Positions 32,070-56,800 of a DNA stretch of 64,000 nt are shown here, piece after piece. The notes under the pieces are model-generated. The model worked only from the letters and a program-made list of their open reading frames with translations. It had not been told where the DNA came from and ran no database searches. This DNA is from a virus. Made by a program: the position numbers and the translations under genes. Position 1 is the first letter of the stretch. Each line of letters starts with the position of its first letter. The stretch lies in IMG/VR virus record IMGVR_UViG_3300034073_005389, positions 1 to 64,000 of that record; one strand, written 5' to 3'.

Positions 32070-32656
32070 TATAAAATCCTTGTTAAAATATTTTTATCTA
32101 AACCAGCTAATTCTGCCTCTTGTAAGGCTCCTACTATGGAAAAATCATCCATCTTAGATAAGAAGGCTAAATCTCCATAAGTTTGCAGGCTAAATCCTTT
32201 GTCATTGAAAATATTTTTATATTTATCTGGTAAAGGAGTTTCTCGGCTAATAGTCTGAGAAGTGGAAAATAAATATTTTAGTTTATATTCATTGACGACT
32301 CCTTCTACTGTCATAAAAGAAATAGAAGTTAATCTTCTTTTAGCTTTTACTACTTTATTTAAGTAAACCCAATCAATATATTCTTTTAAGATAGAAGGAT
32401 TGGAGGATAGTAGTTGTGACAATTTTTTAATTTGAAATACTTCAAAACATTTTGAAGGAGCTGAATTATTAAATTTAAATTTATAATCTATTTGATATGT
32501 TTCTTTGTACTTTTTACAAAAGTAAGCCAAAACATGCAATACCTTCCAGTCTTTTACTTCTAAGGTATCTATTTCTGAAAATTTTAGAAAAAACTTTTTA
32601 TAGTTTTCATTGGGGGCTTCTCCTAAATTTCCGCCAGTCAAATCAATTTTCTTCAT
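32069..32656 (-). CDS. hypothetical protein of the replication operon
   Basis: This 195-residue protein is mostly helical, with Lys/Tyr-rich segments (CKKYKETYQIDYKFKFN) and no motif I can name. It sits between the UvsW-like helicase, whose 3' end it overlaps by 14 bp, and the Sm-like gene, joined by TAATG. The position suggests a replication accessory role, for example helicase loading or single-strand binding, without direct evidence. Confidence 0.65.
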   Translation of the reverse strand: MKKIDLTGGNLGEAPNENYKKFFLKFSEIDTLEVKDWKVLHVLAYFCKKYKETYQIDYKFKFNNSAPSKCFEVFQIKKLSQLLSSNPSILKEYIDWVYLNKVVKAKRRLTSISFMTVEGVVNEYKLKYLFSTSQTISRETPLPDKYKNIFNDKGFSLQTYGDLAFLSKMDDFSIVGALQEAELAGLDKNILTRIL

Positions 32657-34163
32657 TGCTTGTACCTAATAAATCCTTTTTTAAATCTTTGGGTATTATT
32701 ATTTTAAATCCTGTTTCAGTAGAATATATTTTATGTCGCTTTTTAGAATGCGCCTTTAAATATTTTACATCATCAAAAAAATCTACAATAGCAGCATATT
32801 TTTTACCAGGGAACTTACGAATTACTCTACCTATTCTCTGCAATGCTCGAATACTGCTTTTGCCACCTCCAGTTAATACCAAGGCAGACAAAGAGCTAAT
32901 ATCAACTCCGATATCAAAAATAGAGCTGGCTAATACTAAATTAGATTTTTTAGATAATAAATTTTGCTTGGTCTGATTTCTTTTTTCTAAAGAATCAGAG
33001 CCTGATAAATATTCGTAAGGAATTTCCTGTTCCTCAAATAATTCACATAAATTTTTGCCATGCTGCAAATGCTTGAACAATACTAATACTTGATAATTCT
33101 TTGTCAAGAGATCCTTCACTTGATCAATTATCAAATTATTTCTGATTATATTTTCAGAAATATATTCTTTATACACAGTTTGATAGTTAGCTGTACCTGT
33201 TCCAATATAGGTTTTAGGAACTCTAACAAATTTAATAATAGGTTGCGCCAAATGCCCCTCTTCTATTAATTCAGAAGCCTGCACATTGACAATTTGCTCT
33301 CCTAATATTCCATTGATAAGTAAATCTGATCCATCATCTCTAAATGGAGTGCCTGAGAAACCATAAATATATTCAGGATCTATTTTAGTAAAAATATTTT
33401 TAATAGTATCAGTAGTAACTACGTGACTTTCATCAAAAATATGAACTTTAGCTTGTTGAAGCATAGAAACAATTTGCTCGCTTTGAGTTTGAGTAGGAGC
33501 AGTTTCTTTTTCTTCTAATTCATCATCTGTAACGATAGAATGTTTTAATTTTAACGCGCTGCTAACAGACCAAATACTAACGATATTAATCCGATGGATA
33601 CGACAAACACCATTTCCGATAAATCCGATTGGTTCGTCAAATAATAAGGAAAAAAGATCATAAAATTGTTGCAATAAGTCTATACCAATTACATAAATAT
33701 TGGTAGGTTTATTAAGCTTCGCAGTAATCAAAGCTGTGCAAAGAGTTTTACCTGCACCAGTGCAAGCACGCACAATTCCTTTGTGATTGTTAACAGCTGC
33801 ATCTACAATCTTTTGCTGATAAGATCTGGTAGTGAAATTATTTTGAACTAATTTATCTGATAAATCAATTGAATCATTTTTCTTAACTGATTCTCTTTTA
33901 TCAATTAATTCAAAATTAATTTTATTTGTATTTAAAAAATGTATTACTTTATTTAATAGTCCTAATAAAAAAGTACCATTTTTGGCTAATAAGTAATTTA
34001 CTCCATCCCAACCATTTTTGTATGCTGCCGTATATTCTACACCTGCAGTTTTATATGACAAGGTGCGTCTTAATCTATTAAATAATAATGGGTTACTTAA
34101 TTTTATTTGACCATGTTTATGATTATGAATAATTATTTGACAAATTTCTTGTGATTCTGACAT
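32643..34163 (-). CDS. superfamily 2 DNA helicase (UvsW-like)
   Basis: This 506-residue helicase has motif I CTGAGKTLCT, motif II FDESH (DExH box), motif III GFSGTPFRDD, motif V VLASSIFDIGVDI and motif VI ALQRIGRVIRK. The N-terminal 110 residues form a DNA-binding region like that of T4 UvsW, which unwinds branched DNA in recombination-dependent replication and switches off R-loop origins. An AT-rich GATATATAAATT element lies about 20 bases upstream of its start. Confidence 0.9.
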   Translation of the reverse strand: MSESQEICQIIIHNHKHGQIKLSNPLLFNRLRRTLSYKTAGVEYTAAYKNGWDGVNYLLAKNGTFLLGLLNKVIHFLNTNKINFELIDKRESVKKNDSIDLSDKLVQNNFTTRSYQQKIVDAAVNNHKGIVRACTGAGKTLCTALITAKLNKPTNIYVIGIDLLQQFYDLFSLLFDEPIGFIGNGVCRIHRINIVSIWSVSSALKLKHSIVTDDELEEKETAPTQTQSEQIVSMLQQAKVHIFDESHVVTTDTIKNIFTKIDPEYIYGFSGTPFRDDGSDLLINGILGEQIVNVQASELIEEGHLAQPIIKFVRVPKTYIGTGTANYQTVYKEYISENIIRNNLIIDQVKDLLTKNYQVLVLFKHLQHGKNLCELFEEQEIPYEYLSGSDSLEKRNQTKQNLLSKKSNLVLASSIFDIGVDISSLSALVLTGGGKSSIRALQRIGRVIRKFPGKKYAAIVDFFDDVKYLKAHSKKRHKIYSTETGFKIIIPKDLKKDLLGTSNEEN

Positions 34164-34255
34164 AAATTCCTACTCGATCTAGAAATTTATATATCGAATA
34201 GGAATAAAAATAGTTTTTTAAAATTGATTTTATCTTATATATCAATTAAATGAAA

Positions 34256-34283
34256 AAGCCATACGAAATTAATCGTATGGCTT
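34256..34283 (-). terminator. rho-independent terminator after the tubulin-like gene
   Basis: A perfect 11-bp stem (AAGCCATACGA / TCGTATGGCTT) with a 6-base loop lies 22 bases past the stop at 34305. On the minus strand it is followed by TTTTTC, so it ends transcription of the tubulin-like gene and separates it from the helicase operon. Confidence 0.85.
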
Positions 34284-34304
34284 CTTGCTAAACAAAGGTA
34301 GATT

Positions 34305-37076
34305 TCACTTTCTGCGATCTACTAATCCAGTTACCAACTTACCAAAAGATGAAGATTTTGCTGCAATTTTGTCTTTAATCTTCTGAGCAGCTGATACTGT
34401 TTCATTTACTCCAGTATCTAAGTTCAAAGTAAGATTTCTTGAATCATCTTTGTCTTTTACTTTAGATTGAAGTTCTTTAGTTTCTGCTTTTAGCTGTTCT
34501 ACACGAGAGTTAGGCAATCCTAGTCCAGAAAACATACTATATACTTTTACAGTGTCTGCAGCAGAATCTACTACATACATACCTTTAAATACTCCTTTAG
34601 GAGTGCCACATAGATCATTAATCATGCTACTAGCATAATTAATACTGGAGGCTGGAATCTTAGACCATACTTCTTTGTTAGCCACCACCATAAAACCAAC
34701 ATACTTAGACTGCTTTAAATCAAAACCGCTGGCTAATAAGTTTCCTGATAAGTTGTTAATAACAGCTTCAGCAATAGCTGTATCTTCTTGATAATTATCA
34801 ACAGTAAATTCCCCATATACTGAGAGACCTTCCCCATCAATAAATAACTTAGAGAATTCCATAGGGTCTAGTGCCTTAGTAGAAGAAGGCATGCTAGACA
34901 AAGTATTGAAAGCATCGATAGGATCGACAATGGCTTTATTAGCTACGCCATAAAAATCTACCTGACTTACGTTGTGATAAATTGTTTCAATCTTTGCGTT
35001 ATCTACTACAATAAGATTACTAACTCGTTTGCTTTGAGTAAGCTTAGCCAATTTAGCTAATGTCTCTAATGCATTAGATTTGGTCTGAGAATCTTCTGTA
35101 TCCATAGGAAGGGCAGCAATTACTACTAATGGCTTTCCCATATCTGCAAGTAAATCTACTAATGTTTCACAGGAGCCTGCTCCAGAGCCGCCACCTAAGC
35201 TAAGGCAGAGTAAGTGAACTTGGGCTGAGCTTAAACGATCATTAACTAATTGTGCAATTTGACCACGATGAGTTTCAGCAGCTGCTTTACCAATTTCAAT
35301 TTCTTTAGCAGCACCACCTAAGCCATATTCTAGAAGCAATTTGTTGCTATCAGGAATATCAATAAATTTTAGATCTTGTAAAGCAGTGTTAACCACACAT
35401 GCCTGATATCCTAATTTGTAAAAAGACTCGGCTAAGCGACTATTATGAGTAAATATGAATCCATTTTCTCCAGCAACATAATTTTCATATGTTTCTACTG
35501 TCAAATCAAAAAATTCATATTGATCATCTTCTGTATCAATTTTAATATTTTTAATATCAATCAGTTTAGGGGCGATGTCTGAAATATAACTCAATTGATC
35601 AGATTTATTTAAATTAGAAATCATATTTATAAATGTTGGAATTGACAAGTCTCTAACTCCAGCCACCCAATTTTTGATATTTAAATTTGTCTTTTTATAA
35701 AATTCATTTGGTCCACCAAAACCTCCTTCTTTAACTAAAACGTGATCAATGTCCTTATAATCAATAGGGACAATAGATGTTGTATAGCTTTTCTGTTTTT
35801 TAGTCAAATGATTAGATAGCCTGCTATGTTTTAATGTAGACTTTACATTATCACATAAAAAATCTGCCATTGGTCCGAAATTTAATTTACCATTTATAGA
35901 TATTTTAAATCCATCTTTTTCGTTATCTCTATTAGAAATACTATTTCTTAATGAAGATCTCCCACCAATAGAAGAAATTAAACATCCTAATTTACTAGCT
36001 AATGCGCTAGAAGTAGTATATACTTGAGCCTCGCACCAATCATCGCTTACAGTTCCATCAGCATCTATTAAGCCGGATAAAAATGCAGTTCTTACTTCTA
36101 ATGAAGCAGCAGAGACACAAGAAGGTACATCAATAGAGTACGTTTTATGACCAAATCCTCCATTAGTTTTTCCTACGTACATGTTAAAACAAGATTCAAT
36201 AAACAAACGGAATGAAAGACCAAAAACCTCTACTTGATCACATCCCGCTCTTTTATTAAGAGATATTGATGAATGAGGGATTAATGAACATACCTCAACA
36301 ATGTTTTTAGTTACATTTTCATCACTTGAATAAAATGATATGGAATTTCCATGTAATTTATCGTGACCATCCCCTGCAAAAACACCTAATAACCAAGCTA
36401 TTTTGCTATTTATTTCTATACCTCTAACATAGGTTTTTTGAGAAATTATATCAACAGGCTCTAATCTAGTATCTACTAGATTATCGCCAACAGATAATGG
36501 CTTACTATTACTTAATGAAGAAAAAAATGCTTTTCTTCTTGACATAGGTTTAAAAACTAAACTTGGATGTGTTTTTGAACATGAAAGACTTGTTCCATTG
36601 CTTAATATAATTTTATTTTTAATACTTTTTTTGTTTTTCCATACAGCTAAAACTTTTCCCTTTTTAATTTGACCAGTTTCTGGATCTATAGAAACAGTAT
36701 AAACATCTTTGTCTAATTCAATGCAAATATCATTATTTGCCTGCATTTTTATATTTTCTAATTTTGAACAATTTAATTGATTATAGAAAAAATCTTTAAT
36801 TGAAATTATTCCGTAATCAGAAAGATAAATATTGGTATTACCATCTATACATCCTGCCTGACCCGAACCTAATACACCTACTTGTAAACTTCTTTCTTTA
36901 GGTGCTACGATTTTTGCTGCCATTTTTGACTCCTGTTGTTTTGCTTGACTTTTCGCTTTTAGAGCGGCTAATTTATTTGTATCTATTGTATCTTCTGATG
37001 CCTTTACTTCTGCGGTTGAAATATTATCTACAACATTTTCGGGTTTATTTTCTTCTGTAATTGAAGTTGCTGACAT
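34305..37076 (-). CDS. FtsZ/tubulin-family GTPase precursor containing an intein
   Basis: The 923-residue product is a tubulin-like GTPase split by an intein at residues 76-545, so the mature protein would have about 453 residues. Its host part shows an N-terminal extension (1-62), loop T1 VLGSGQAG (69-75 up to the junction) continuing as SRLAESFYK, T3 region GLGGAAKE, the tubulin signature LGGGSGAGS (T4), T5 ALPMDTED, T6 LIVVDNAK, a T7-like ALDPMEFSKLF, and a basic C-terminal tail. It might form filaments that centre or segregate phage DNA, as PhuZ does in other jumbo phages. A strong terminator follows. Confidence 0.88.
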   Translation of the reverse strand: MSATSITEENKPENVVDNISTAEVKASEDTIDTNKLAALKAKSQAKQQESKMAAKIVAPKERSLQVGVLGSGQAGCIDGNTNIYLSDYGIISIKDFFYNQLNCSKLENIKMQANNDICIELDKDVYTVSIDPETGQIKKGKVLAVWKNKKSIKNKIILSNGTSLSCSKTHPSLVFKPMSRRKAFFSSLSNSKPLSVGDNLVDTRLEPVDIISQKTYVRGIEINSKIAWLLGVFAGDGHDKLHGNSISFYSSDENVTKNIVEVCSLIPHSSISLNKRAGCDQVEVFGLSFRLFIESCFNMYVGKTNGGFGHKTYSIDVPSCVSAASLEVRTAFLSGLIDADGTVSDDWCEAQVYTTSSALASKLGCLISSIGGRSSLRNSISNRDNEKDGFKISINGKLNFGPMADFLCDNVKSTLKHSRLSNHLTKKQKSYTTSIVPIDYKDIDHVLVKEGGFGGPNEFYKKTNLNIKNWVAGVRDLSIPTFINMISNLNKSDQLSYISDIAPKLIDIKNIKIDTEDDQYEFFDLTVETYENYVAGENGFIFTHNSRLAESFYKLGYQACVVNTALQDLKFIDIPDSNKLLLEYGLGGAAKEIEIGKAAAETHRGQIAQLVNDRLSSAQVHLLCLSLGGGSGAGSCETLVDLLADMGKPLVVIAALPMDTEDSQTKSNALETLAKLAKLTQSKRVSNLIVVDNAKIETIYHNVSQVDFYGVANKAIVDPIDAFNTLSSMPSSTKALDPMEFSKLFIDGEGLSVYGEFTVDNYQEDTAIAEAVINNLSGNLLASGFDLKQSKYVGFMVVANKEVWSKIPASSINYASSMINDLCGTPKGVFKGMYVVDSAADTVKVYSMFSGLGLPNSRVEQLKAETKELQSKVKDKDDSRNLTLNLDTGVNETVSAAQKIKDKIAAKSSSFGKLVTGLVDRRK
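35442..36851 (-). other. LAGLIDADG intein in the tubulin-like GTPase
   Basis: A 470-residue intein. Block A starts at Cys76 (CIDGNTNIYLSDYG), block B is near NGTSLSCSKTHPS with His170, and the C-terminal block has VETYENYVAG then FTHN with His544 and Asn545, followed by Ser546 as the first extein residue. The homing endonuclease has two dodecapeptides, WLLGVFAGDG (228-237) and FLSGLIDADG (332-341), each keeping its acidic residue. All splicing residues are present, so it should splice to join GQAG to SRLAES. It is AT-richer than its host gene (36301-36360 has 13 G or C in 60; 35101-35160 has 25). Confidence 0.93.
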
Positions 37077-37102
37077 TATATCTCCTTAATAACATTATTT
37101 AA

Positions 37103-39901: not shown

Positions 39902-40747
39902 TCACTTCTGTACGTCAGGGCACCAATGAATTGTCCTGCCTTCTGGCGTAGCCTCTGTCTTTACTATGTTGCCCAACGGGTCTTGCTTGTTTCCATACAC
40001 TCTAAAGAAACTAGAATAGTTCCCTTCTTCTCCATATACATTTGTATATGTATGTAGAGTGGCTCCCTGATATTGGTATGATTCTTGCATCACGGTAACA
40101 ATATCTTGACATAAACTATTAATCTCATTGTACATCAATTTATTGCCAGGTCTCCAAGGAGAAATTTTAGATAAATATAACGCTTCAGCTCTTATATAAT
40201 TACCAACTCCTGCAAAAATAGATTGATCCATCAATAACTGACCAATTGGTTTATCACTATTTAATTTTTTATGAATACGATTCTTATAATCATTATAATT
40301 GTCTTGTAAAGGATCCCATCCTAAGCTTTTTAATTTTTTCTCTAAAGCTTGTTTGCCTTTAACAAACTTAATTGTTCCAAAATGTCTGGGATCATTAAAA
40401 TACAGCTTGCTCGTAGTTCCATCTTTATCTTCTAAGTCTATAATAAAACATGGATGCTTGCCTTCTTTTGGGCTCCATTGACCTGTCATGCCATATGTAC
40501 AAAACATATACCAATCATTGGTAAATGTCCAATACATAAACTTACCTTTTACATTAACATCTATGATAGAGATTGGATTATGTTTAAATAAGTATCTTTC
40601 TTGCAAGAATTCAAACATACCCTCTACTGTAGAAGTAACTTTGCCATATCTTCCATTTAAGGTAGGTGAGGCGTCTATTACTTTTTTATCTATGGCAAAA
40701 ACTTTAATAAATCCGGCTGATAATCTTAATTCTGGACCTTCGGGCAC
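39902..40747 (-). CDS. Fpg/Nei-family DNA glycosylase with zincless finger
   Basis: This 281-residue enzyme begins MPEGPELR, with Pro2 (Schiff-base nucleophile) and Glu3 exposed after Met removal. It also has the VKGKFMYW beta-hairpin with the conserved Lys and the GVGNYIRAEAL helix-two-turn-helix. The C-terminal hairpin GNIVKTEATPEGRTIHWCPDVQ lacks the four zinc cysteines of bacterial Fpg and Nei and resembles the zincless finger of NEIL1-type enzymes. The start is GTG, with AAGGAG in the leader. It would excise oxidised bases and cleave the AP site. A TTGACA promoter drives it. Confidence 0.88.
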   Translation of the reverse strand: MPEGPELRLSAGFIKVFAIDKKVIDASPTLNGRYGKVTSTVEGMFEFLQERYLFKHNPISIIDVNVKGKFMYWTFTNDWYMFCTYGMTGQWSPKEGKHPCFIIDLEDKDGTTSKLYFNDPRHFGTIKFVKGKQALEKKLKSLGWDPLQDNYNDYKNRIHKKLNSDKPIGQLLMDQSIFAGVGNYIRAEALYLSKISPWRPGNKLMYNEINSLCQDIVTVMQESYQYQGATLHTYTNVYGEEGNYSSFFRVYGNKQDPLGNIVKTEATPEGRTIHWCPDVQK

Positions 40748-42648: not shown

Positions 42649-45600
42649 TCAAATTGGAGTAGGTGATGGTAGATATGGTACAAAATTCCAGCTATGAGCA
42701 ATAGGGGGTGAAGCTGCATATGGATTGTCATATGTCATTACCAATCTTGCCATCTTACAGATAGCCGCATCTAATCCAGGAGCGCCTGTATTTAAACTTA
42801 AATGTATTTCATATAAGAAATCACTTGCGCCAATATTTAACAAAGTCTTAATATCGTCTGAAGCTAAATATGTAGCAGCAGTATTTAAAGTAGATAATAT
42901 AGGTCCACCACCAGAAATATTAATATAAGATGCATTAGCAATGTCATACAACTGGATTTGTGCATCTAGGGCTGCATTAGTGGTTTCTAATATTACTTCT
43001 AACTTAATAGTGCTTAATCCTTGTAAAATATAATTATCAAATCTGAAGGGGAAAGCGCCAATTACTGTAGGAGAGTTATTATCATTAGAATAAATACCAG
43101 CTGTTCCATAAATATAAACAGGATTCTTATACATAAAGCTTGGATCTAATAATCCATAGCCATCTGTCTTTGGAATCTTATCTGCATCAGGAATGCCTAA
43201 CGAGAAAGGTATTACTCCAGGTAAACTAGTTATAAACTGATAGCTTAATCCGCTACCTGTGCTCATTAATACTGTTCCAAATACGCCTACGCTATTTAGT
43301 CCTGTACCGCCATGTACAATAGGAAGTATCCCAGTAATATCTGTAGCCAAATCTACAAGAGCAGAAGGACCTCCATCTACAGCCCCGCTAAACACGCTAA
43401 TTAATTTTAGCATATTTTGTAATTTAGTAGAATCTACGAATAGTGGTCGATTGTTAAATCCACCTTTTTTAAGGTAAACACTTACTTGAATTTTTGTGCT
43501 TAATGTTTTTAACACTTCATCTTGAAACAAGTTAGTAAAGTTTAGTGTTAACAAGCCTGTAGAATAATCAATTGATACACCAATTTTACCATCTACAATT
43601 GCTCCTGAATATCCATCATTGCTCAAACCATTTGTATTAGGAGAAAATGACTGTACAGCTACTGAGAATCTAATTTGATCTTTGGCTAAAGCATCTGCTT
43701 TTACAAAAGAACAGTCGGCAAATCTCATGGCAGGAAAGCCTAAACGGGTTACGCCATTATTGGTGTAATCAGCAATAAAATCATCCATAATATTGATGGT
43801 GCGTTCTGTTCCAAATAATCCATCTGGAACTTCTAGAACTAGAGTACCAACTTCAAAATCTACTTTATAAAAATTACCATCTGGTCTATGAAGTTCTCCC
43901 CCATCTCCTAGAATAATATTATCTGGAGCAAATACATCTACTCTACCAGAATTAAAATCAGGTTTACTACCATATACATTACATAGAATTCCTTGTATAT
44001 TGCATTCATTTTTAACAAATCCTGATAATGTAGTAAATACGCTAGGTACTTGTTTTGCTCTACTATTAGTGACAATTAAAGACTCGGTCCAAGTTAATTG
44101 TTTTTCAAACACTAAAGCTGATGGGCTAGTATAAAAATCATGCGAAGCAAAGTAGTATCCGTCATTCAAGAAAACATCTTGTAAAGGATGTATAGTCGTA
44201 GAGCGACCTATAGTAACAGGTGAATAATCATCTGCTCTATCTACAAATTTTTCTACTTTAATTCTTATGACGTTAAAAGGGGTACCGATTTTGGTATAAG
44301 CGTTAGTTGCTGGGGCTGGATAAGTAGTAGTTCCAGATGTAGTAAGAGGAAAACGATCAATATAGTTTTGCAACAAATAACCATCATTAGCTGTAACTGC
44401 AAAATCTCCGTCAATATCTGCTCTTAGCATCTGACCTAATACGTCGCCTGTTAAATATATTTTTCTAAGTGTTAATACATCTGTATTGGAAGTAATGCTA
44501 ATAATGTCGAATCCACCATTATTCTCAGGATTAGAAGGCGCTAAGACCACTAATTTATAAGAGCTTAAACCAATAATTGTATTAAAATTAACGGTAGCAC
44601 TAGTAAATTGAGCTAATCTAGGATTGGTAGGGCTAGCTACTAGCACGCCATCTGTACCAGAAGCTACAACCAAACTAGTAGCAGTATCTACTAATTGAAA
44701 TGAAACATTAAAAATATTGGTAAATGGCTTTATATAAGTTGTATAACCATTAGTAAATGTAGTAATGTATCCATCTGTATTAATAATTGTATTTTGTGGT
44801 AACCCTACATTTAAATTATAGTTTAAATAAGTGTTTAATAACACTAAGTCTTCATCTGTAATTAGCCCATCGCCATTTACATCTCCAACTAACATAGAGC
44901 ATAGTTTAGCATCTGCTATTCTATAGAAGATGTTTGGATCAGAGTAATTTGGATATATTTTGGCGCCATTTAAATCACCGTTAAGTAAATTTGTAACTAA
45001 GCTAGTTACAGAGTTATCAAATCTAACTACATCAGTAGGATCATCTACTATTCTGATAAGAATTTCATCTTCAGCTAATGTGGCGCTAAATAATTTAGAC
45101 ACTATTTGCGCTGAAATAGCGTCGTAATATTTTCTATTTTTATCAGAAATAGCTCCAACTAATAATGGCTCTGAAGCTGTTTCTAAATTTGCAATTTCTA
45201 AACTATTTAGCAATTTAACATCTGGCACAATTTCTTGTCTAGATAAAACAGGATTCCCTGTTCTTTGATCTGGCACAGGCGTTGTCTTATCTGTTACCGC
45301 TTGAACAACAGCACGATATACATCGTTGCCAGTAAATTGTAAATTTTGCAGACAGTAATCAATTGTAGCCTGAGAGGCTGTATCTAAAATAGTTTTAGGC
45401 AGAATCATCCCTAAACCAGAATCATAAGCTTGTCCATCTGACATTTTAGCAGCATCTGTCCAAATGCTAAACCACAAATCTTCGTCTGGTAAATCTACCC
45501 ATAATGTACCAGTAAATACTGTAATTCTAGAATCTTTTACAGTATCATTACCGCTAGTAACTAAAATATCACATTTATTTGCTGCGCCAGATCTTTTAAT

Positions 45601-46668
45601 GGTGAAAGCATAGTAATTACCGGGTACAATTACGTTTCCACCAGCTACTGTACTATTACTAAAGATAAAGTCCACTGGTTGAGGAACGCTATCTAATACA
45701 GTACCAGCGGCTTGCAAACTGCCATAGTTAACACTTAGTTGTGCTAATGGAATATTAGATGGAGGAAATTCAATTTGAAGATTAGGGGCAATGTCAGTAG
45801 GACAATTTAAATTAGACTGTAAAGGATAAATACTAATAATTAAGTCGCCAGTCCATGCTAAGTCATTTTCATACCCTACTTCTTGATTTCTAACAGATAG
45901 TAGCAAAGTAAGTTTTTGTATATTATTAGTGGTAGCTACAAACTTTTGACCAAGTTGAGTGGTCACATCATTTAAATATAATATTTTATTTTCTTTACCA
46001 GTTGTATAAATATTTAAAGAATCTACATTGTATAATGGTAAAGCGGTTTGTATTAAATTAATAACAGAGCCATAGCCATCTACATAACCATCAACAAAGA
46101 AGTCTCTAAAAAATAGATTTGGCTCTACTGTCTGAGATACCATGACAGGGTTTCTTGACAAAGTCAATGGATTGGCATCTTTAATTATAATTTGACCACC
46201 TAAATTTAAAGATAATTCTGGATTACCAATAAAATCATTAAAAAGTAATAATAATATTTTAGTAAAGTGCTTAACACTTACTTGAGATTCATTGGTTTGG
46301 AAAACAAATGTCTCATATTGTAAGTTAGATTGAAAATCTAAACCAATAACACATACTTTAACAGTTCTTTTACCTGCGGCAGCAGAACCAGTCAAAGAGA
46401 TTTCTAATTGATTTCCTAAATTATTATCTGATGGTTGATTTTGAGTAAAAATAGCAACGCCATCTAAAAATCCTGTTTGAAGCAAAGAATCAAACAAGAT
46501 TCTAGGCACTAAAGATTCAGACAATACGCCATTACCAATGTGATTATTTATAATACCAGCATTAATAGTAGTATTATATGTTTGCTCTAAAGATAGATCA
46601 GTAGCATCTACTTGCTGAGCATCAAACCAAATATTTTGTTCTGCGGAGATAGGAGTTCTTTTAGTCAT
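42649..46668 (-). CDS. large virion protein with dockerin-like calcium loops
   Basis: This 1339-residue protein is rich in Asn, Asp, Leu, Thr and aromatic residues with repeated beta-sandwich character (for example SFQLVDTATSLVVASG and QFSVAVQSFSP-like blocks). It has two dockerin-type EF-hand loops (residue 595 and residue 750). It is coupled to the 2378-residue neighbour by a six-base gap, and is part of the baseplate and tail block. I propose a baseplate-associated or tail-fibre-attachment role from position and composition; no close family is recognised. Confidence 0.7.
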   Translation of the reverse strand: MTKRTPISAEQNIWFDAQQVDATDLSLEQTYNTTINAGIINNHIGNGVLSESLVPRILFDSLLQTGFLDGVAIFTQNQPSDNNLGNQLEISLTGSAAAGKRTVKVCVIGLDFQSNLQYETFVFQTNESQVSVKHFTKILLLLFNDFIGNPELSLNLGGQIIIKDANPLTLSRNPVMVSQTVEPNLFFRDFFVDGYVDGYGSVINLIQTALPLYNVDSLNIYTTGKENKILYLNDVTTQLGQKFVATTNNIQKLTLLLSVRNQEVGYENDLAWTGDLIISIYPLQSNLNCPTDIAPNLQIEFPPSNIPLAQLSVNYGSLQAAGTVLDSVPQPVDFIFSNSTVAGGNVIVPGNYYAFTIKRSGAANKCDILVTSGNDTVKDSRITVFTGTLWVDLPDEDLWFSIWTDAAKMSDGQAYDSGLGMILPKTILDTASQATIDYCLQNLQFTGNDVYRAVVQAVTDKTTPVPDQRTGNPVLSRQEIVPDVKLLNSLEIANLETASEPLLVGAISDKNRKYYDAISAQIVSKLFSATLAEDEILIRIVDDPTDVVRFDNSVTSLVTNLLNGDLNGAKIYPNYSDPNIFYRIADAKLCSMLVGDVNGDGLITDEDLVLLNTYLNYNLNVGLPQNTIINTDGYITTFTNGYTTYIKPFTNIFNVSFQLVDTATSLVVASGTDGVLVASPTNPRLAQFTSATVNFNTIIGLSSYKLVVLAPSNPENNGGFDIISITSNTDVLTLRKIYLTGDVLGQMLRADIDGDFAVTANDGYLLQNYIDRFPLTTSGTTTYPAPATNAYTKIGTPFNVIRIKVEKFVDRADDYSPVTIGRSTTIHPLQDVFLNDGYYFASHDFYTSPSALVFEKQLTWTESLIVTNSRAKQVPSVFTTLSGFVKNECNIQGILCNVYGSKPDFNSGRVDVFAPDNIILGDGGELHRPDGNFYKVDFEVGTLVLEVPDGLFGTERTINIMDDFIADYTNNGVTRLGFPAMRFADCSFVKADALAKDQIRFSVAVQSFSPNTNGLSNDGYSGAIVDGKIGVSIDYSTGLLTLNFTNLFQDEVLKTLSTKIQVSVYLKKGGFNNRPLFVDSTKLQNMLKLISVFSGAVDGGPSALVDLATDITGILPIVHGGTGLNSVGVFGTVLMSTGSGLSYQFITSLPGVIPFSLGIPDADKIPKTDGYGLLDPSFMYKNPVYIYGTAGIYSNDNNSPTVIGAFPFRFDNYILQGLSTIKLEVILETTNAALDAQIQLYDIANASYINISGGGPILSTLNTAATYLASDDIKTLLNIGASDFLYEIHLSLNTGAPGLDAAICKMARLVMTYDNPYAASPPIAHSWNFVPYLPSPTPI
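44359..44421 (-). other. dockerin-type calcium loop 2
   Basis: Residues 750-770 of the same protein read ADIDGDFAVTANDGYLLQNY and one more residue, a second, slightly less perfect loop of the same kind. In true dockerins the two loops are adjacent; here they are about 155 residues apart and bracket a beta-rich segment. Confidence 0.65.
44824..44886 (-). other. dockerin-type calcium loop 1
   Basis: Residues 595-615 of the 1339-residue virion protein read GDVNGDGLITDEDLVLLNTY and one more residue, matching the dockerin loop GDVNGDGxIxxxDxxxL, in which the Asp/Asn residues bind calcium. Confidence 0.75.
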
Positions 46669-46674
46669 AGTATT

Positions 46675-49600
46675 TCATCTAGTATACTGTATAAACACCT
46701 TACTGTTGGCTGGCTTCAGCACTTTTATTAACTTTTCTAAAGCAGCCTGGACTTGTGGGCTACTATTAACTATACCAAAGCTATCAAGAATATTAACAGT
46801 AAAATCAAAATAACCATTATTTCTGTTTTTTAATACCGAAAAGTCAGTATTTAATTTAACTAAAGTGTCAAAGTTTAATAAATAAGTAGTATACAAGTCT
46901 GGTGTTACTGGGAATGCCATTTGTAAGTTACTATTATAGTTGACATCAATAGGATCTCCATATGGAGCATAAATAGGTCTAGAAATATCACTTATTCTGA
47001 GATTATCTATTAATGAGAATATTGGGCTAGTCTGATCATATTGCGCTCCAATAAACAACTCATTAATTGGGTCTTTAAACTTTATATTTGGTAATATCTC
47101 ATATCCATCCTTAAACCCAGGGGTAGCTAAATAGATAGGAGCTTTATTCTTTTCTGTAAACAATATCCTAGAATATTGATAACCATCTAAAAATAATCTC
47201 ATTTCATCAAAGCCAGTACTGCTATTTAACTTATAACTAGCTTTAACTCTATGCCATGTATTTTTAGACCAAAAAATAGGAGCTTTTACCGTATAATTAT
47301 TTTCAGATGCAGTAATTGAAAAATTCATATACCCAAGTTTGTCTTTAAAGATAGATAGCCTATCTCCTTGTAATCCCTGAGGAATATAATTTACGATTAC
47401 TTGAGAATTTTGATTTGGTAATTTTCTATTTAACCTAATTACCTGAGTATTTATTTTTGTATTTTGATTTTCTACTGGTTTATAAGTAATTAACAATGGC
47501 AAATTAGAGGCGGGTAAAACTTTACCTAAATAAATTGTTTTTCTATCTGGACCAATTGCACCATTATTAAAATAATCAGTGTTAGTCAAATCTCCAATAA
47601 TTTGAACTTTAACTACCTGCAAAATATTTTTAGCAGTAGTAACAGAACTATTTCCAATACTTAACGCTTCTTCTTGAATTGCATTTTGAGTGTCTATTTC
47701 TACTTTGCCTCCTACAAAATAATCTATTGCAGGATCTCCATATTTTAACTTAACACTTAAGACTTGAGAAATTGGAGAATTAATTTTAATAGATACATTA
47801 TCCACACTTACAGCATCTTCTAATACCGCTCCGTATGCGTCAAAGTAATATCTTTCATTTGGATCATTACCTGTATCAAAAATAGGATTCATCCAAAATT
47901 CAACAGTACCTTCTTTTTTAGTGTCTAGAATGCCATCATTAGATAAAATGATAGGCTTATTTAATAACACAATGCTATTTCCAAAATTTTCATTTACTAC
48001 GATTGAAGACTGAAAATAATTCTTTAATTCTGAAGTATTCGTATAATAATCAGAATTATTAGTAAATGGATATGTATCAAAACTTAATAACATTAAAGTG
48101 TTAGCATCTTTTCTTAAAGGCTTTAAAGAGTTGTAATCTTTAGTTATAGATCTTTGGTTATTAGGAATTGTTTCTCCTACTCTAGTATCAGTTAACATCA
48201 CCGAGTATATTTTTACTTGATCTACTATGCCATTAAACTGATGAGTACCTTTAAAATTAGATCCTAAATACACTTGCATATTAAGTGGCGGCATTTTAAT
48301 TTTTGTATAAGTACTATACTTTAGCTCATAAAACCCACTAGATAAATAATATGCTTGGCTTGGTAATTTATTTACTTGGAAAGTAAAGAACCCATTTTGC
48401 AATCCACTTCTATAATCTGTTGTTTTTACTATCTGATAGTAGCCGTCTACAAAGTTAGGTACTGGTAAAGGTGGTGCGGCTGTACTGGGTTGTACCGTTA
48501 AAGATAAAAGGTCTGGCGATACATCCGTTATTACATAGTAACCAGCAGGGGCAATAGGATAGGTAATTATTAAATAATTATTTATATATTCTGTGCTAAA
48601 TGCATTGTAACCATCTGTTACAATATCATATCCGTCTTTGTATAAAGAAATTCCATCATTAATTATATAACTATATTTAACTACTGGGGCTAATCCGCTC
48701 AACTCAGCATAAGTCATAGAGTATTTTTCTTTAGCTTCTATAGTCAACGCTGGTTTCAAAGTATTAATTGGCTTCGCATTTACTTGAATATAATTTACAG
48801 AAAGGTATGGATTAACAAAATTAAGAGTGCCATAATCTGTAAAAGTAATTGTTTCGCTTACAGTAACAATTCCAGTTAAACCATTAATAGTTACTGTGAC
48901 TGGAGTAGAAAAATCAGTATTATTACCAGCAATAGTAACAGCTATTGTTCTGCCGCTTTGTGAATTGGTTGGCTGAGATGTTGTTAAGTTATTAGAAACA
49001 AATACATTTCCAACTAAAGTAGAGTTGGATGGACCAATTGGAACTACAGGAAGTATTATTTTTTTAATTATTGCTTCATCTAAAGAAATAGGGGCAGGTA
49101 ATCTGGTCCTAATAATATTTTCTACGTTATTTCCCCACACATAATATTTATGTGTAAAATTTCTGTAATTTAATCCCAATAATCTAACTAAAATTAAATC
49201 CTCTGCAAAAACATCATTAGAAATAGTTAAAATATTATTGTAATTAATATCTTTAGAGACAGAGTAAGATGGATCTACTGCTCGTAACCCAGGTATTTCA
49301 GTTTCTGCGGGTGCATAAACTTGAAATTGTGCATTTGTTAGCGAAATAGGCAGATTGTCCGTAATTGTAACTGTATTTCCAGATACTTGCACAATATTAT
49401 AACTAATTTCAAAATTTGGATTATTAACTCTAATTAAATAACCTGGTAATACTCCTTGATTTTGAAAATTATAAGAAGCAGAAGAAATAACATTAGAACC
49501 TACATTAGTAATAGCATCAGATCCTTTGAAAATAGGGCTAATGGTACTTACAGTAATATTAGAAGCTATATCTATTTCAGAAGTTACTGTAAACTGAGTT

Positions 49601-52600
49601 CTATTTACAGAGAATCTGCCATTTTGCAGTGTTAATGGCATATTAGCACTTAATGTTAAATTTTGTCCATTAATTGCTAAAATAGTATATCCATTAGTAT
49701 CAAATCCAAGTTCGTCTATAAAAATAGTATCACCAACAAAAATATTGTATGCACTAAAATTAATACTAGATTTAACTACGTTGCTACCACTAGTAATGAC
49801 TAAATCATTGCTACCAATAATGTCTCTATTAGCTAAACCAATTAACTCTTCTGGATCTACTGTTCTAAATTTTTCATGTAAATATGGTTTTAATTTTTGA
49901 CCATATCTAATTATATTTGGAACTTCTAATCCATCAATAAATAAATGCATTTCATCACGACTATCTGGATTATTTAATTTCCAAGATACTGCTACTTGAT
50001 GTAATTCTCCAGCTTTCCAAGAAGATACGTCTGCGCTTAATAAATACATATTACGCTCTACATCATAAACTCTAAAATTTAGATATCCGCTAATGTCTTT
50101 AAAGACAGACAATCTACCTTCTGTTTCATGCACTCCAAAATCTAATAAATAATGATCTACATCTGATACAAATGTAATACCACTATCTACTGCAATAGAA
50201 CTGCCTAAAGTAAAAGTAATGCTATTAGTACCGGTAAAAATACTTAAATTATATGGTTTAGGTATAACAATACTCTTAGAGTCATAGAATCCGCCAGTAG
50301 AAGTAATTTTAAATTTATAGGAAGAGCTTCCTGGATTAACATATCCATCTATTACTCTAACATACCATCGATTAAAATTGCCAGATACATCTTGATCGTA
50401 ATAAATATAAATTCCATCTTTATTAAAGTTAGGGAGACCAATTGCGCCAGAATTTTTATTAATTGTAAAAGTTCCGTTTACAATTTCGGGATGATATTCA
50501 GAAGCCCCAATAAATATGCCTAAATTAGAAATAGAATATCCATCATATCCATCTTTTTTAATTAAGAAAGTTAATTCTGCATCATTATCAATACCATTCC
50601 ATTGAGGAGATACCCAGGTTTCAAAAGTACCTTCTTCTAAACGAAGATTGGAAGAAGCTGGAAAAGTAATAGTTTGATCTGAACTATTAATTAATACTCC
50701 ATTAGAAAATTTTGCAGGCAATAATTGAAATGAACCTGTACTCGAAACTCCTTCTGGAAACAATAAACTAGATCCTAAGGACCAGTTTTCAAACACAGAT
50801 TCAGTAATTTTAGGATCAATATGTGATATTTTTTTACCTATGTTTTTTATAGCTTTAACTGTAGGTCCTTGAATAAAAGAACCCATAGCGGCTACTAGCG
50901 CATCACGATATCTTTCTCTATTAAATTCAATATCAAAATTAGTTAATTCAGGTATGTTAACTAAATCTCCAAAGTTTTTTAACAACGCATCTCTTAATGC
51001 GCCATATCTATAACTAACAAAATATTCAGACCCTACAGGAAGGCTTGTATTTTGCCTAAAATCTAAAACGTTATCTCCATATTCATAACTAACAATAATT
51101 TCATCAGCTAAATAAGTATAATCTACTAAATACTCTCCTTTACTATAATCTACTACCACTCTTGAAGTATCGTTTATAGTAAATGTATAAGTAATATTTA
51201 CTAATTGACCAGCTACTGGTGAATTAATATTTGGAAGTATTAATTTAACAGGATCTCCTGGAACAACAGTACCAGCATTATTCCAAAGTTGAGCAGAATC
51301 AGAGGCTCTAATTATACTAAAGTTAAAAGTAATATTTGGAGAAAAATAAGGTATATTTTCGTTAATATTTACATAAAAATTGGTCCCATCAAATTGAATT
51401 GTGTCAAATAATTGTTTTGATAATGAATTGACGCTAATATTAAAATTATTAGCTACAGCATAATTAGCAAAATTGATAGGATTAGTGCTATTTGTTAAAT
51501 CATCAAACTCAAATAAGCCCCTGACAAAAGAAACTTGCTCTGACACTCCAGGCAAAAAGCCAGCATTAACAAAAATACCGACATTTTTATTATAAAGCTG
51601 ATAGGCTGCTTGAGGATTATTATTTAAATATAATTCATCAGAATATTCTAAAGATGCAGGTATAATTGATCCATCTGCAAAAGAAGTATATGCAAATTGT
51701 TTATTTTTAATACCTAGCTGATCTATTTGATAGTAAATATCCTCAACACTAATTAAATGTGGGTATTCTGGAGAAATATTAGCATATTTATAAGTAATTG
51801 TTCCTATATTATTATCTTGAGTATTGGAGACTGCACAATATACAATACCATTTTCGTAATCAATACAGTAATCACCTATTGCTGTTAATTTTTGTATGTT
51901 ATTTTGATCTAATTCTCTGTTAAACCATTTTTCAGCTTTAAAAATATTTATTTTTGAAAAATTAACACTGGTATTTGTGCTCATGCCCTGACTATCTTCA
52001 GTAGATGAAGATAATCTATTATTAGATAATTTTAAAATAAAGACTTTGCGACCAGAAGTGTTTACTAATGAAGAATCCACAAACAACAATTCATTTTCTA
52101 TTGTTTTAAACTTAATTTTTTCTTTTGTTTTAGATTGAATATTAGGTGGATTTAAATATCTAAAATAAACACGATCTCCGTTCCAGCGGTCAATTGTATA
52201 AATTTCTCCAGAAGTCTCATTATAGATTCTAAAAATATTTGTAACTGGAGAGTTTTTCACTCTAAGTGAATTGAGAGCCAATAATCTGTTCTCAATACGC
52301 TCTTGCATATTTTCTTTGTGAACATTAGCCACATAATCTATGTTAGGAACTAATACTTGCTCATACTTAAATTCAATAGTGCCTGAATTTTCAAGCAAGT
52401 TACCTAATGGTAATGCCACTAGATCTCTAGTAGTGTCATCATAAGCATAATCTTGCTCTAATTTATAAAAAAACTTATAATTATAAGTAGCTAATGGGGG
52501 ATAAGGACCAGTACCATCATTATTAAGATCAGATCCATACACATATACTGTTCCTGTAGGGTAATCAATAGCATATTGCCCAGGAATAGAAGGTAATCCA

Positions 52601-53811
52601 TTTAATCTAAATGGTATCTCAGTAATAAATGCAGGGTGTTTAGCATTTGGAATATTTGTATTAGGATCAGTAAAAGTAACTCCTCCCAAAGTTGCCGGGG
52701 CAGCATTAGATGTTACAATAGGAGCATATTTTAAATTAAAAATATTTATAATTGGAGGTAATACCTCTCTAATAGATTTGCGAACAGTATAAACAGATAG
52801 GCTATTAGAGTCTACAATAACGCCTTCATTTTTATATTCGTAGTTTACATCTACTTTTATTATTTTATCTAAAGCAAATAATGGATCTGATAATATTTCA
52901 CTGTTTAGTTTAATTTGATTATTAGCTAATAAAGCATAACTAAACCCATATTCTTGATCATATCTAGAATCTAATATTTGATATCCTAGTTTTTGAATAT
53001 CATAAACAAAAATTGGATTATTAGTGTTTAATGTAAATGTTACGCTTTTTAACTTAGTTACAGGAAAGCTAGTTAAATTTAATATTAAATCATTTATATT
53101 AAATTTACCAACTTCATTTACTGAGTCTGAAGTAAGAGATTGAAATGCAGATTCTTGTTGTAAAGTAATTGGATAATAAGGAGTCTCATCATAAGAAAAC
53201 TTTTTGGTTACTGCAAAACCAGTACGAGTTCTTCCTACTCTAAATACATCATAAGCCCCTTCTTCTAAGAGACGATCAAAAGCGCCTTCGCCTCTAATTT
53301 TCTTTTCATCAATAACATCTAAAGATAAATAATTTTCATTACCTAATTGTCTTATGTCGTACAAAGCCCTAGATAAATTTTCAGATAAAGAACGTATATA
53401 AACAGAAATTAAAGAGTTAGTATTTTCTAAATTATAGACTCCATCTTTTAAGAAATTATTTAAATATAACTGTACAGGATTATCAGGGTCTACTGGACCA
53501 ATTATAAAATATTTGTTAGCAACATCATCTTCAATAATTTTAGCAAATCCATTTACTGAAGTAAATGGATGTCCAGTTACAGATTTAAAATAAACAAAAT
53601 ATCCAGCCAAATCAGTTAATGGTTGACATTCAATATTTAAAATATTTTTTCTAACATTAATAGATATTACTTTAGGATCTGGTACATTAGGAGTTTCAGA
53701 TTTAATCTCTACGTTAGAAGTGACCAAGTTATTAGTCAAAGACTCGGAAAAAGTAGCCTCTATAGTAGTACTACTTGTAGTTTTAACATTAGATATTCTT
53801 AAGTTTTGCAT
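46675..53811 (-). CDS. giant tail/baseplate protein with LamG-like domains
   Basis: This 2378-residue protein is the largest in the window. It is beta-rich, with many Asn, Tyr and Ile residues. At least two concanavalin A/LamG-like modules can be recognised (about 1055-1350, with EEGTFETWVSPQW and DEMHLFIDGLEV, and about 1965-2250, with EGTVEFWMNPIF and DEMRLFLDGYQ). The N-terminus (SNVKTTSSTTIEATFSESL) looks Ig-like. It overlaps the GpJ-like gene (TAATG) and probably forms the baseplate periphery or a side fibre that contacts host glycans. Confidence 0.75.
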   Translation of the reverse strand: MQNLRISNVKTTSSTTIEATFSESLTNNLVTSNVEIKSETPNVPDPKVISINVRKNILNIECQPLTDLAGYFVYFKSVTGHPFTSVNGFAKIIEDDVANKYFIIGPVDPDNPVQLYLNNFLKDGVYNLENTNSLISVYIRSLSENLSRALYDIRQLGNENYLSLDVIDEKKIRGEGAFDRLLEEGAYDVFRVGRTRTGFAVTKKFSYDETPYYPITLQQESAFQSLTSDSVNEVGKFNINDLILNLTSFPVTKLKSVTFTLNTNNPIFVYDIQKLGYQILDSRYDQEYGFSYALLANNQIKLNSEILSDPLFALDKIIKVDVNYEYKNEGVIVDSNSLSVYTVRKSIREVLPPIINIFNLKYAPIVTSNAAPATLGGVTFTDPNTNIPNAKHPAFITEIPFRLNGLPSIPGQYAIDYPTGTVYVYGSDLNNDGTGPYPPLATYNYKFFYKLEQDYAYDDTTRDLVALPLGNLLENSGTIEFKYEQVLVPNIDYVANVHKENMQERIENRLLALNSLRVKNSPVTNIFRIYNETSGEIYTIDRWNGDRVYFRYLNPPNIQSKTKEKIKFKTIENELLFVDSSLVNTSGRKVFILKLSNNRLSSSTEDSQGMSTNTSVNFSKINIFKAEKWFNRELDQNNIQKLTAIGDYCIDYENGIVYCAVSNTQDNNIGTITYKYANISPEYPHLISVEDIYYQIDQLGIKNKQFAYTSFADGSIIPASLEYSDELYLNNNPQAAYQLYNKNVGIFVNAGFLPGVSEQVSFVRGLFEFDDLTNSTNPINFANYAVANNFNISVNSLSKQLFDTIQFDGTNFYVNINENIPYFSPNITFNFSIIRASDSAQLWNNAGTVVPGDPVKLILPNINSPVAGQLVNITYTFTINDTSRVVVDYSKGEYLVDYTYLADEIIVSYEYGDNVLDFRQNTSLPVGSEYFVSYRYGALRDALLKNFGDLVNIPELTNFDIEFNRERYRDALVAAMGSFIQGPTVKAIKNIGKKISHIDPKITESVFENWSLGSSLLFPEGVSSTGSFQLLPAKFSNGVLINSSDQTITFPASSNLRLEEGTFETWVSPQWNGIDNDAELTFLIKKDGYDGYSISNLGIFIGASEYHPEIVNGTFTINKNSGAIGLPNFNKDGIYIYYDQDVSGNFNRWYVRVIDGYVNPGSSSYKFKITSTGGFYDSKSIVIPKPYNLSIFTGTNSITFTLGSSIAVDSGITFVSDVDHYLLDFGVHETEGRLSVFKDISGYLNFRVYDVERNMYLLSADVSSWKAGELHQVAVSWKLNNPDSRDEMHLFIDGLEVPNIIRYGQKLKPYLHEKFRTVDPEELIGLANRDIIGSNDLVITSGSNVVKSSINFSAYNIFVGDTIFIDELGFDTNGYTILAINGQNLTLSANMPLTLQNGRFSVNRTQFTVTSEIDIASNITVSTISPIFKGSDAITNVGSNVISSASYNFQNQGVLPGYLIRVNNPNFEISYNIVQVSGNTVTITDNLPISLTNAQFQVYAPAETEIPGLRAVDPSYSVSKDINYNNILTISNDVFAEDLILVRLLGLNYRNFTHKYYVWGNNVENIIRTRLPAPISLDEAIIKKIILPVVPIGPSNSTLVGNVFVSNNLTTSQPTNSQSGRTIAVTIAGNNTDFSTPVTVTINGLTGIVTVSETITFTDYGTLNFVNPYLSVNYIQVNAKPINTLKPALTIEAKEKYSMTYAELSGLAPVVKYSYIINDGISLYKDGYDIVTDGYNAFSTEYINNYLIITYPIAPAGYYVITDVSPDLLSLTVQPSTAAPPLPVPNFVDGYYQIVKTTDYRSGLQNGFFTFQVNKLPSQAYYLSSGFYELKYSTYTKIKMPPLNMQVYLGSNFKGTHQFNGIVDQVKIYSVMLTDTRVGETIPNNQRSITKDYNSLKPLRKDANTLMLLSFDTYPFTNNSDYYTNTSELKNYFQSSIVVNENFGNSIVLLNKPIILSNDGILDTKKEGTVEFWMNPIFDTGNDPNERYYFDAYGAVLEDAVSVDNVSIKINSPISQVLSVKLKYGDPAIDYFVGGKVEIDTQNAIQEEALSIGNSSVTTAKNILQVVKVQIIGDLTNTDYFNNGAIGPDRKTIYLGKVLPASNLPLLITYKPVENQNTKINTQVIRLNRKLPNQNSQVIVNYIPQGLQGDRLSIFKDKLGYMNFSITASENNYTVKAPIFWSKNTWHRVKASYKLNSSTGFDEMRLFLDGYQYSRILFTEKNKAPIYLATPGFKDGYEILPNIKFKDPINELFIGAQYDQTSPIFSLIDNLRISDISRPIYAPYGDPIDVNYNSNLQMAFPVTPDLYTTYLLNFDTLVKLNTDFSVLKNRNNGYFDFTVNILDSFGIVNSSPQVQAALEKLIKVLKPANSKVFIQYTR

Positions 53812-56800
53812 TATCTAGTCTCTGTGTTAAGAACAATATTGTTTGGAGTAAAATACTCATCATTTTGTGCCTGTATCTTTAATACTTGCCCTTCCTTACC
53901 AGTCTTATTAAAATACAATATTCTTGCTCTGGCAATTCCATTTACTCCTTGAGCTAAATTAATAAGAGTAATTTGATCAATAAAAGCTCCTAAATTAGTA
54001 GCTGTTAATGCAGTAGTCAAAGTATCTCTTACTGTTTGCAATACTGTTGAAGTAGATGGTTTAAATGCTTCATCTATAACTACGTTCATTGTTAAATCTA
54101 ACTTAATTTCTTTTGCCGCCTTGACAATTACATCTGCATTAATAGGTCTAGTGTTTTCTATATTAAAAGTAACATCTGATACTAATTTATTAAAATTGTA
54201 ATTAATAACAATTCTTTCATTTTGTTTAGGTGCGGTATAATCATAAAAAGCTTTATATCTAGCACCAGCATTTGGCTGAGTAAAAGAAGTTAGTGTTAGC
54301 TTAGTTGACTGAGATGTCTTGAAACCACTACTAACAAATACCCTATTAATAAAAGCAAATTTTTTATTTGTATATAACACACCATTCCTGGTATAAGCTA
54401 AGTTCTCAGAATCATTATCATTTACATAATAGAAGGTAACTCTTAATTTGTCCCCTATTCTTGGCAAATTTTGAACATCTGTATTTAAAGTATTATTTTC
54501 CGTAGAAGGAAGAATAAACTCTAAATTAGATAAAGTAGGATCTGATAAGCAATCATTTGCATATAACAAATTATTTTTTATAATAGTATTTTGTAAATCA
54601 TAAGTAGTTAGCACAGAAACCACTTCATCATTAGAATTACTTACTGTTGTTACTTTTTCTAATTTAGCAATTTTAGCTACTCGGAAATTACTAGGTACTG
54701 CCGTCGCAGAAGATATGCCTAATGCCTTGCGCATTGCCTCTAGTAGATTCAATCTTAATCCAGTATTAGTAGCAGTAAATACAATGTTTGTAGCTTTAGT
54801 TACCGTAGTGCCTGCAAAAGTAATAGTCCCAGTATTAGTTATTTGATCTGTTGTAGTAGATGCTAGTCTTGTTAATGACTGTTTTAAATTAGAATAGTTG
54901 AAAAAACTAATGTATACAACATCATTTTCTTTTGCATTTGCTCCAGATGGCAAATACAATCTATTTCCAGCCACATCAATAGTTCCACTTGTATTCCAAA
55001 CTTCTTGACCATCTAATACTCTTACTATAGAAATTTGGTTAGCATTAATTTGCTCTAATGAACTGCTAATTACCATAGTGTTATTAGCTAAGTCATAACC
55101 AACAATATCATACAACCCATTGTTATTGGTACCTGAATTATATATTTTTATTTTTTTATTAAGTAATCCGTCTAACGTAGAAAAGTTAATAGAAAAACTT
55201 CCTAATATAGCGGTAGAGCCATTATTAACTAAGTAACCGTCATTAACAGTAAACAATGCAATGTCAGTGTTTGGCTCTAACACCTGAAAATCCATATTAA
55301 TTTCATTAACAAAATTATTAATTGGAACATATAAAGTGTTAGTAAAAAAATCTTTTAGCAGAGTACCAACTCTGTATTTAATTAAATTATTTTGGAAAGT
55401 AAATGGCTGGTATCTGCGGTTATCAGTAGCGTAATAAATTACCAATACTCTTTCAGAAGTAACAGGAATATTGTAACCAGTTAAAATTAACTGATAATTT
55501 CCAGAAGTTCCGATTGCAATAGTTCCTAAATTATCTGAATTCCATAGCTCATCTCCATCTGACAATCTAATGACAGAAATAACTTGAGAAGCTAATAAAG
55601 TATAATCGTTAGAAGGTAATGTTAGCTCTACATAAAACTGATTGCTAAAGTTTTTTTGTATAACTTGAGATTCTCTCCTAGCTAAATTAACTGGAGTAAA
55701 ATTATTAAATCCAGTATTATTTGCTAATAAATAACCATTACTAACTCTACTGGTAGGCAGGGCATTAAAAGCAGAACTATATAAATCAAATACGCTAGCC
55801 ACATATGAGACTCTTAAATTTATTACATTGGCGGTAGTATCAATATTATCTGCAGGTATTGTAATTTGATTTCCATTTGTACTGCCTACTGAATTAGTGG
55901 CATGAAATACATCTTCTGAGTTTAAAAAGACAGTAACTCTGTCACCATTTTTAACTACAACATCTGTAGGAAGAATAATAGTAGTTGTATATAATATATT
56001 AGCGTTAACTAATACAGGAATACTAGTAAAACTACCATTTGCTTGAGCGGTATTGTACTGTTCTGTATTTGTGTTTTTAACTAGTATAGAATCAATAGTA
56101 TTAGTAATTACTGGAAGATTGCTGAGTACAACAGATAATCTTCCAATAAAGATACCAGATGTAATAGCTACTACTGTACCATCTACTTCAATAGATTTAT
56201 TAGCAGTAGCTACTGAACTTACTGGATGTATGGTTGTACCATTAAAAAAATTTGTACCAGATGTTTTAGTAAAAGTAACTATTTCATTTCTAACAATAGA
56301 TGCATATCCCCAATCAATACTATCATTAACGGCTCTGATATTAGAAGTATTGTATAATCCGTCAAAATCTGAATACTGATCATAAGATACAATCCAGTTA
56401 TAATCTACTTGTAAAACGTCACTAGGAACTGGTAAAGTATTTCCAGAAATTTGTATTCTTCCAGTAGTATTGTATATGCCTGTATTATCTAAATTTTGAT
56501 TTGTTACTACGTATCTTTCGCCAGTATTTACGTTAAATACTCTAGTAACATTATTTAATGGTGTGTGCAATAGTTTTAAAATAGAACGATCTGAAGTAAC
56601 ATCACTGTCTTCATTGGTTATAGAAATATTCTGTTGCGCATCATGTATTTGGATTAATCCGCTAAAAGTAGCTGGATCCTGACCATTAAATTGGTTTTTT
56701 ACTTTTTCATCTTGAAAAAGAGATATTTTATTAGAAATCCAATGAAACTTATCAAAACCCCAAGGAGAACCGGAGTACACTCCAGTGTCTTTAATTAATT

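Follow-up and report, generated by a model that had tools for sequence, protein, structure and literature searches.

A class-1 LAGLIDADG intein in the T1 nucleotide loop of a TubZ-like GTPase gene of an uncultured huge phage

The DNA analysed here, referred to as the window, comprises the first 64,000 nucleotides of a 361,490-base virus record (IMG/VR IMGVR_UViG_3300034073_005389; G000). On its minus strand lies a single open reading frame for a tubulin-superfamily GTPase that is split, between the last glycine of the T1 nucleotide loop GSGQAG and the serine that follows, by a class-1 intein (Table 1). Joining the exteins gives a protein of 453 residues. The neighbourhood of the gene, with a sugar epimerase upstream and a UvsW helicase downstream, is kept among the 27 relatives compared. 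Elsewhere in the window, a gene for an Fpg/Nei-type DNA glycosylase (39902-40747, minus strand; Fapy_DNA_glyco and H2TH domains) is one that many relatives also possess, and three consecutive very large reading frames of 1339, 2378 and 1363 residues occupy 42649-57902 on the minus strand. The 2378-residue frame has no match among named phages, and a search for the T4 portal gave no matches, controls included.

Table 1 Features of the intein-bearing gene and its surroundings (window positions)
Feature	Position	Strand	Remarks
Precursor reading frame, tubulin-like GTPase interrupted by intein	34305-37076	-	923 aa, one open frame
Shine-Dalgarno AAGGAG before the precursor ATG	37082-37087		
N-extein, residues 1-75, last residues GSGQAG	36852-37076	-	
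T1 loop GSGQAG, intein enters after last Gly	36852-36869	-	Bacillus cereus TubZ (4ei7) has GLGMGG at the aligned place
GGTCAGGCAGGA, N-side part of the 15-nt flank common to both intein carriers	36852-36863	-	
Intein, 470 aa, Cys1 to Asn470, precursor residues 76-545	35442-36851	-	Profiles and L088 homologue
Intein block B with His95 (NGTSLSCSKTHPSLVF)	36552-36599	-	Aligned with PI-PfuI
LLGVFAGDG, first LAGLIDADG motif, retaining catalytic Asp161 (L088: Asn)	36366-36392	-	
LSGLIDADG, second LAGLIDADG motif, retaining catalytic Asp265 (L088: Ser)	36054-36080	-	
Intein blocks F and G, FFDLTVETYENYVAGENGFIFTHN, up to Ser+1	35442-35513	-	Matches PI-PfuI FYDLTVENYQNYLAGENGMIFVHN
Ser+1 codon AGT, same in L088	35439-35441	-	
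C-extein, Ser+1 to stop	34305-35441	-	PF00091, TubZ-like_C
Tubulin signature GGGSGAG (T4 loop)	35175-35195	-	Invariant in 25-28 relatives
T7-loop LDPME; catalysis is expected of its acids Asp737 and Glu740	34857-34871	-	Asp and Glu invariant in relatives; aligned with FDASEF of TubZ 4ei7
Terminator-like hairpin directly 3' of the gene, then T run	34253-34286	-	Inverted repeat 14 nt, 93% complementary

The insertion matches the profiles Intein_splicing (PF14890, 4.1e-12), LAGLIDADG_3 (PF14528, 8.8e-9) and Hom_end (PF05204, 4.9e-8). Both of its splicing ends score above the curated cut-offs of the NCBI end models TIGR01445 and TIGR01443 (intein_Nterm, 1.4e-7, starting exactly at the Cys of residue 76; intein_Cterm, 8.1e-7). 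Cys1, the residue-1 nucleophile of a class-1 intein, directly follows Gly-1, and the C-terminal end is His469-Asn470 followed by Ser+1, both here and in a second carrier, the contig L088 described below. The first position of block B, usually Thr, is Ser in both (SKTHP with His95 in the window, SKKH in L088). Two LAGLIDADG motifs with Asp161 and Asp265 mark the window copy as a putative homing endonuclease. The closest solved intein is PI-PfuI, with nearly identical C-terminal blocks. A first reading made from the sequence only had described a complete 470-residue intein with Cys1, the block-B His, the His-Asn end, Ser+1 and two intact LAGLIDADG motifs; the residues and profiles bear this out, and the defect in a splicing residue that it had named as a possible refutation is absent, all of these residues being intact.

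The joined exteins match the profiles Tubulin (PF00091, 1.8e-14) and TubZ-like_C (PF22453, 1.9e-9). Their best solved relative is TubZ 4ei7, at 6.7e-15 from the single sequence and at 2e-28 when a profile of 28 family members is used, whereas PhuZ matches at about 0.004 in the single-sequence search. The fold was taken from an intein-free relative (L003) that is 80% identical to the window extein and has a predicted structure of mean pLDDT 80.7; this model matches the TubZ crystal structure 2xkb at 4.1e-25 (Foldseek), and its match to PhuZ is much weaker. A tubulin GTPase domain, a TubZ-type C-terminal domain and a TubZ-type predicted fold are thus all present, and PhuZ is not the nearest relative. 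The profile search that the sequence-only reading had proposed for the extein therefore places it in the tubulin family as expected, and the best matches in sequence and predicted fold assign the host gene to the TubZ kind, not to PhuZ. Since the GGGSGAG signature and the T7-loop Asp and Glu are invariant among relatives, the extein is likely to be an active GTPase. Among named phages, the extein had no matches.

The same reading had proposed a PhuZ-type spindle that centres the phage DNA compartment. Chimallin, the nuclear-shell family (PHROG 4795), was not found in the window's record or in four relatives, under conditions in which the phiKZ positive control scored 1.8e-232, although these records may have gaps and a shell protein of strongly diverged sequence would escape the search. 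With TubZ as the best match, PhuZ weaker and chimallin not found, there is no support for a spindle of the PhuZ kind surrounding a phage nucleus. A part in DNA movement or partitioning in the style of TubZ would be a guess by family. Pfam searches of ten neighbour genes found no TubR-type DNA-binding partner, TubR being small and divergent, and no tubC-like iteron array was found in the two flanks scanned.

The TubZ-like gene is conserved in a clade of uncultured huge phages. In IMG/VR, 92 relatives were confirmed, on contigs of up to 480 kb, and the best 80 of these 92 are those listed. The relatives inspected read GxGQxG-S or a close variant without interruption at the insertion residue, so that uninterrupted homologues join precisely where the intein sits, with the single exception of L088. 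The sequence-only placement of the insertion in the T1 GTP loop of a phage tubulin/FtsZ-superfamily GTPase is supported.

L088, a 353,765-base contig, carries a homologous intein at the identical residue, 49% identical over its whole length. Identity is 63% in the N-terminal splicing part, 47% in the endonuclease and 28% over residues 341-430. Both catalytic Asp residues of the L088 endonuclease are lost (AGDG to AGNG, LIDADG to LIDSSG), and the splicing residues at both ends are kept. The homing cycle is known to end in loss of the endonuclease acids (PMC8966425), and the sequence of L088 fits the same allele at a late stage of that cycle, with its endonuclease decayed. Chance cannot account for the insertion: relatives run on uninterrupted at this very residue, and the junction recurs in a phage that was assembled independently.

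It is highly unlikely that the window intein has lost its splicing activity or is an artefact of assembly. The Ser in place of the usual Thr in block B (SKTH) could be read in favour of a dead intein, but the frame is open, both splicing ends exceed the curated cut-offs and the junction recurs identically in the independent contig L088; an artefact is further opposed by the synteny of both flanks with relatives. A dead intein would moreover inactivate a gene that is conserved across the clade, and no second tubulin gene was found in the window's phage record.

Other inteins occur in both phages. In L088, the UvsW-like helicase (reading frame starting near 7606 and running to the end of the locus, plus strand) has an intein of its own in Walker A (GSGK/AQPLDAK...THN/TLC), with Ala at position 1, so this phage has inteins in the nucleotide loops of two nearby genes; the window UvsW (32643-34163) is without intein (VRACTGAGKTLC). 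The phage of L088 (G001) is rich in inteins, with at least three further splicing domains above the curated cut-off (136787-137776, 140997-141866 and 247797-248711), and several other relatives in the clade have no intein splicing domains. The window phage has a second intein (G000:C1:121869-122846, minus strand; locus L121) in a 1583-residue reading frame, with the junctions IKPYKN/CFPPRTKIL...VVSN/CNGDIF and a LAGLIDADG_3 match of 1.6e-13. Searches for further copies of the tubulin-gene intein relied on conserved short peptides, so that distant inteins would escape them: IMG/VR gave no matches with the window intein alone, and with an alignment of the two inteins it gave L088 again and one weak partial match of 25%, while the same alignment gave no matches in 84,980 prokaryote genomes. 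Among named phages, the intein found only weak matches to other intein-like hosts.

On the two sides of the junction, the window and L088 have the same 15 nucleotides, GGTCAGGCAGGA followed by AGT. Between their exteins, only 2 of 114 five-residue stretches of identical sequence are also identical in codons, one of these two being the insertion site itself. Both carriers encode Ser+1 by AGT, whereas the other 44 relatives of at least 70% identity that have this serine use TCN; AGY serine codons appear in more distant empty relatives. No single silent change links TCN and AGY serine codons. The shared flank and the AGT codon form the signature expected of co-conversion during homing, co-conversion of flanks being a known by-product of T4-type phage homing (PMC2988022). 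The shared flank and the patchy occurrence of the intein suggest horizontal transfer.

Inheritance from a common ancestor of the two carriers, with loss in the other lineages, is unlikely. It agrees with the extein tree in that both carriers, though not sisters, fall within one supported group of 11, and an AU test does not reject them as one clade (p 0.219). Within the tree, however, L088 groups with four intein-free relatives on a well supported branch (99/91) that does not include the window copy, and precise loss should leave the AGT serine codon behind, whereas the intein-free members of the supported group use TCN. Synonymous sites between the window and L088 are saturated in intein and extein alike, which is compatible with old vertical descent, leaves the comparison of dS uninformative and means that a transfer, if it took place, would be old and undatable.

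Base composition adds little. The sequence-only reading had taken the AT-richer intein DNA as a sign of later arrival, and the difference it noted is numerically right (G+C of 28.7% in the intein, against 36.6%). The genes of the window range from 24.0% to 38.6%, though, with 7 of 43 below the intein's value, so the composition of the intein says little about when it arrived, and AT content was set aside as an indicator. Later arrival itself is supported by the empty sites and the shared flank.

Very probably, then, a TubZ-like GTPase gene was invaded at its T1 codons by a class-1 LAGLIDADG homing intein that is both selfish and splicing. The precursor would join VLGSGQAG to SRLAESFYK by Cys1/Asn470/Ser+1 chemistry to give a normal GTPase, and the predicted ligated product contains SGQAGSRLAESF. 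Once freed, the intein would serve as an endonuclease: it would cleave intein-free copies of this gene in phages infecting the same cell and would spread as the breaks are repaired by copying; both its splicing and its cleavage of DNA are predicted from the intact motifs. Choice of site best accounts for the insertion in T1: the loop would offer a strongly conserved DNA site in new hosts and would not tolerate imprecise loss, and the intein would persist at a place that allows change in neither the DNA site nor the reading frame. Around 70% of inteins reside in ATP-binding proteins, with nucleotide-binding loops favoured (PMC5050341, PMC5790916).

The insertion lies between strand S1 and helix H1 (residues 59-64 and 66-77 in the L003 model), so the unspliced precursor is probably unable to bind GTP normally. 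The AlphaFold model of the 923-residue precursor is poor (pTM 0.45), and the shape of the precursor was not taken from it. A precursor made inactive by an insertion in its nucleotide loop is also the starting point of the idea, put forward in the sequence-only reading as timing by splicing rate, that slow or conditional splicing delays filament assembly or ties it to a signal during infection. Conditional splicing is documented in nucleotide-binding proteins such as RadA (PMC5790916), and in L088 the splicing ends have outlasted the endonuclease acids; splicing has thus been maintained there, although making the protein requires it in any case. Against such regulation stand the near absence of the intein among relatives, by which a splicing timer is no general part of the biology of these phages, the intact endonuclease of the window copy, as in a selfish element, and the lack of any sign of slow or conditional splicing in the sequence. 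We consider a regulatory intein quite unlikely; it is very unlikely that T1-loop splicing times or switches a phage tubulin filament and that selection has preserved this function in L088 since its endonuclease died. The patchy occurrence and the decayed endonuclease favour a selfish element that is obliged to splice well.

Inteins are common in other genes. For proteins of the tubulin superfamily (PhuZ, TubZ, FtsZ and tubulin), no report of an intein was found in the open-access part of the literature, and within that part the window intein apparently represents a new insertion allele, its host family having no published intein. It extends the host range of inteins to the tubulin superfamily. 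Empty alleles, an allele with an intact endonuclease and one with a decayed endonuclease, all at one site in related huge phages, form a natural matched set with which homing between uncultured jumbo phages becomes testable. The gene is also a possible laboratory handle for switching assembly, since splicing would be needed to complete the GTP loop of this tubulin-family filament protein.

Among known filament proteins, the window extein is closest to the TubZ of Bacillus plasmids and phage c-st, with which it has the profiles of both the GTPase and the C-terminal domain (PF00091 and PF22453) in common. It aligns with TubZ 4ei7 over near full length, the L003 model matches the fold of TubZ 2xkb, 2xka and 4ei7, and the GGGSGAG signature and T7 acids are shared. 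However, the extein is only about 20% identical to solved TubZ, and its family has a conserved C-terminal tail ending in DRRK. With the PhuZ of nucleus-forming jumbo phages it shares the tubulin superfamily, a large phage genome and a weak match to PHROG 4733 (3.4e-6), but those phages differ in having chimallin, a family of which no gene was found in the window phage. The intein itself resembles the class-1 LAGLIDADG inteins PI-PfuI and PI-SceI in blocks A, B, F and G, in its two LAGLIDADG motifs and in Cys1, His-Asn and Ser+1; it differs from them in its host, a tubulin-type GTPase whose T1 glycine loop is no Walker-A P-loop. The P-loop inteins of phage terminases and RadA likewise interrupt a nucleotide-binding enzyme at its phosphate-binding loop (PMC5050341, PMC5790916), but their hosts are Walker ATPases, whereas the host of the window intein is a GTPase of the tubulin superfamily.
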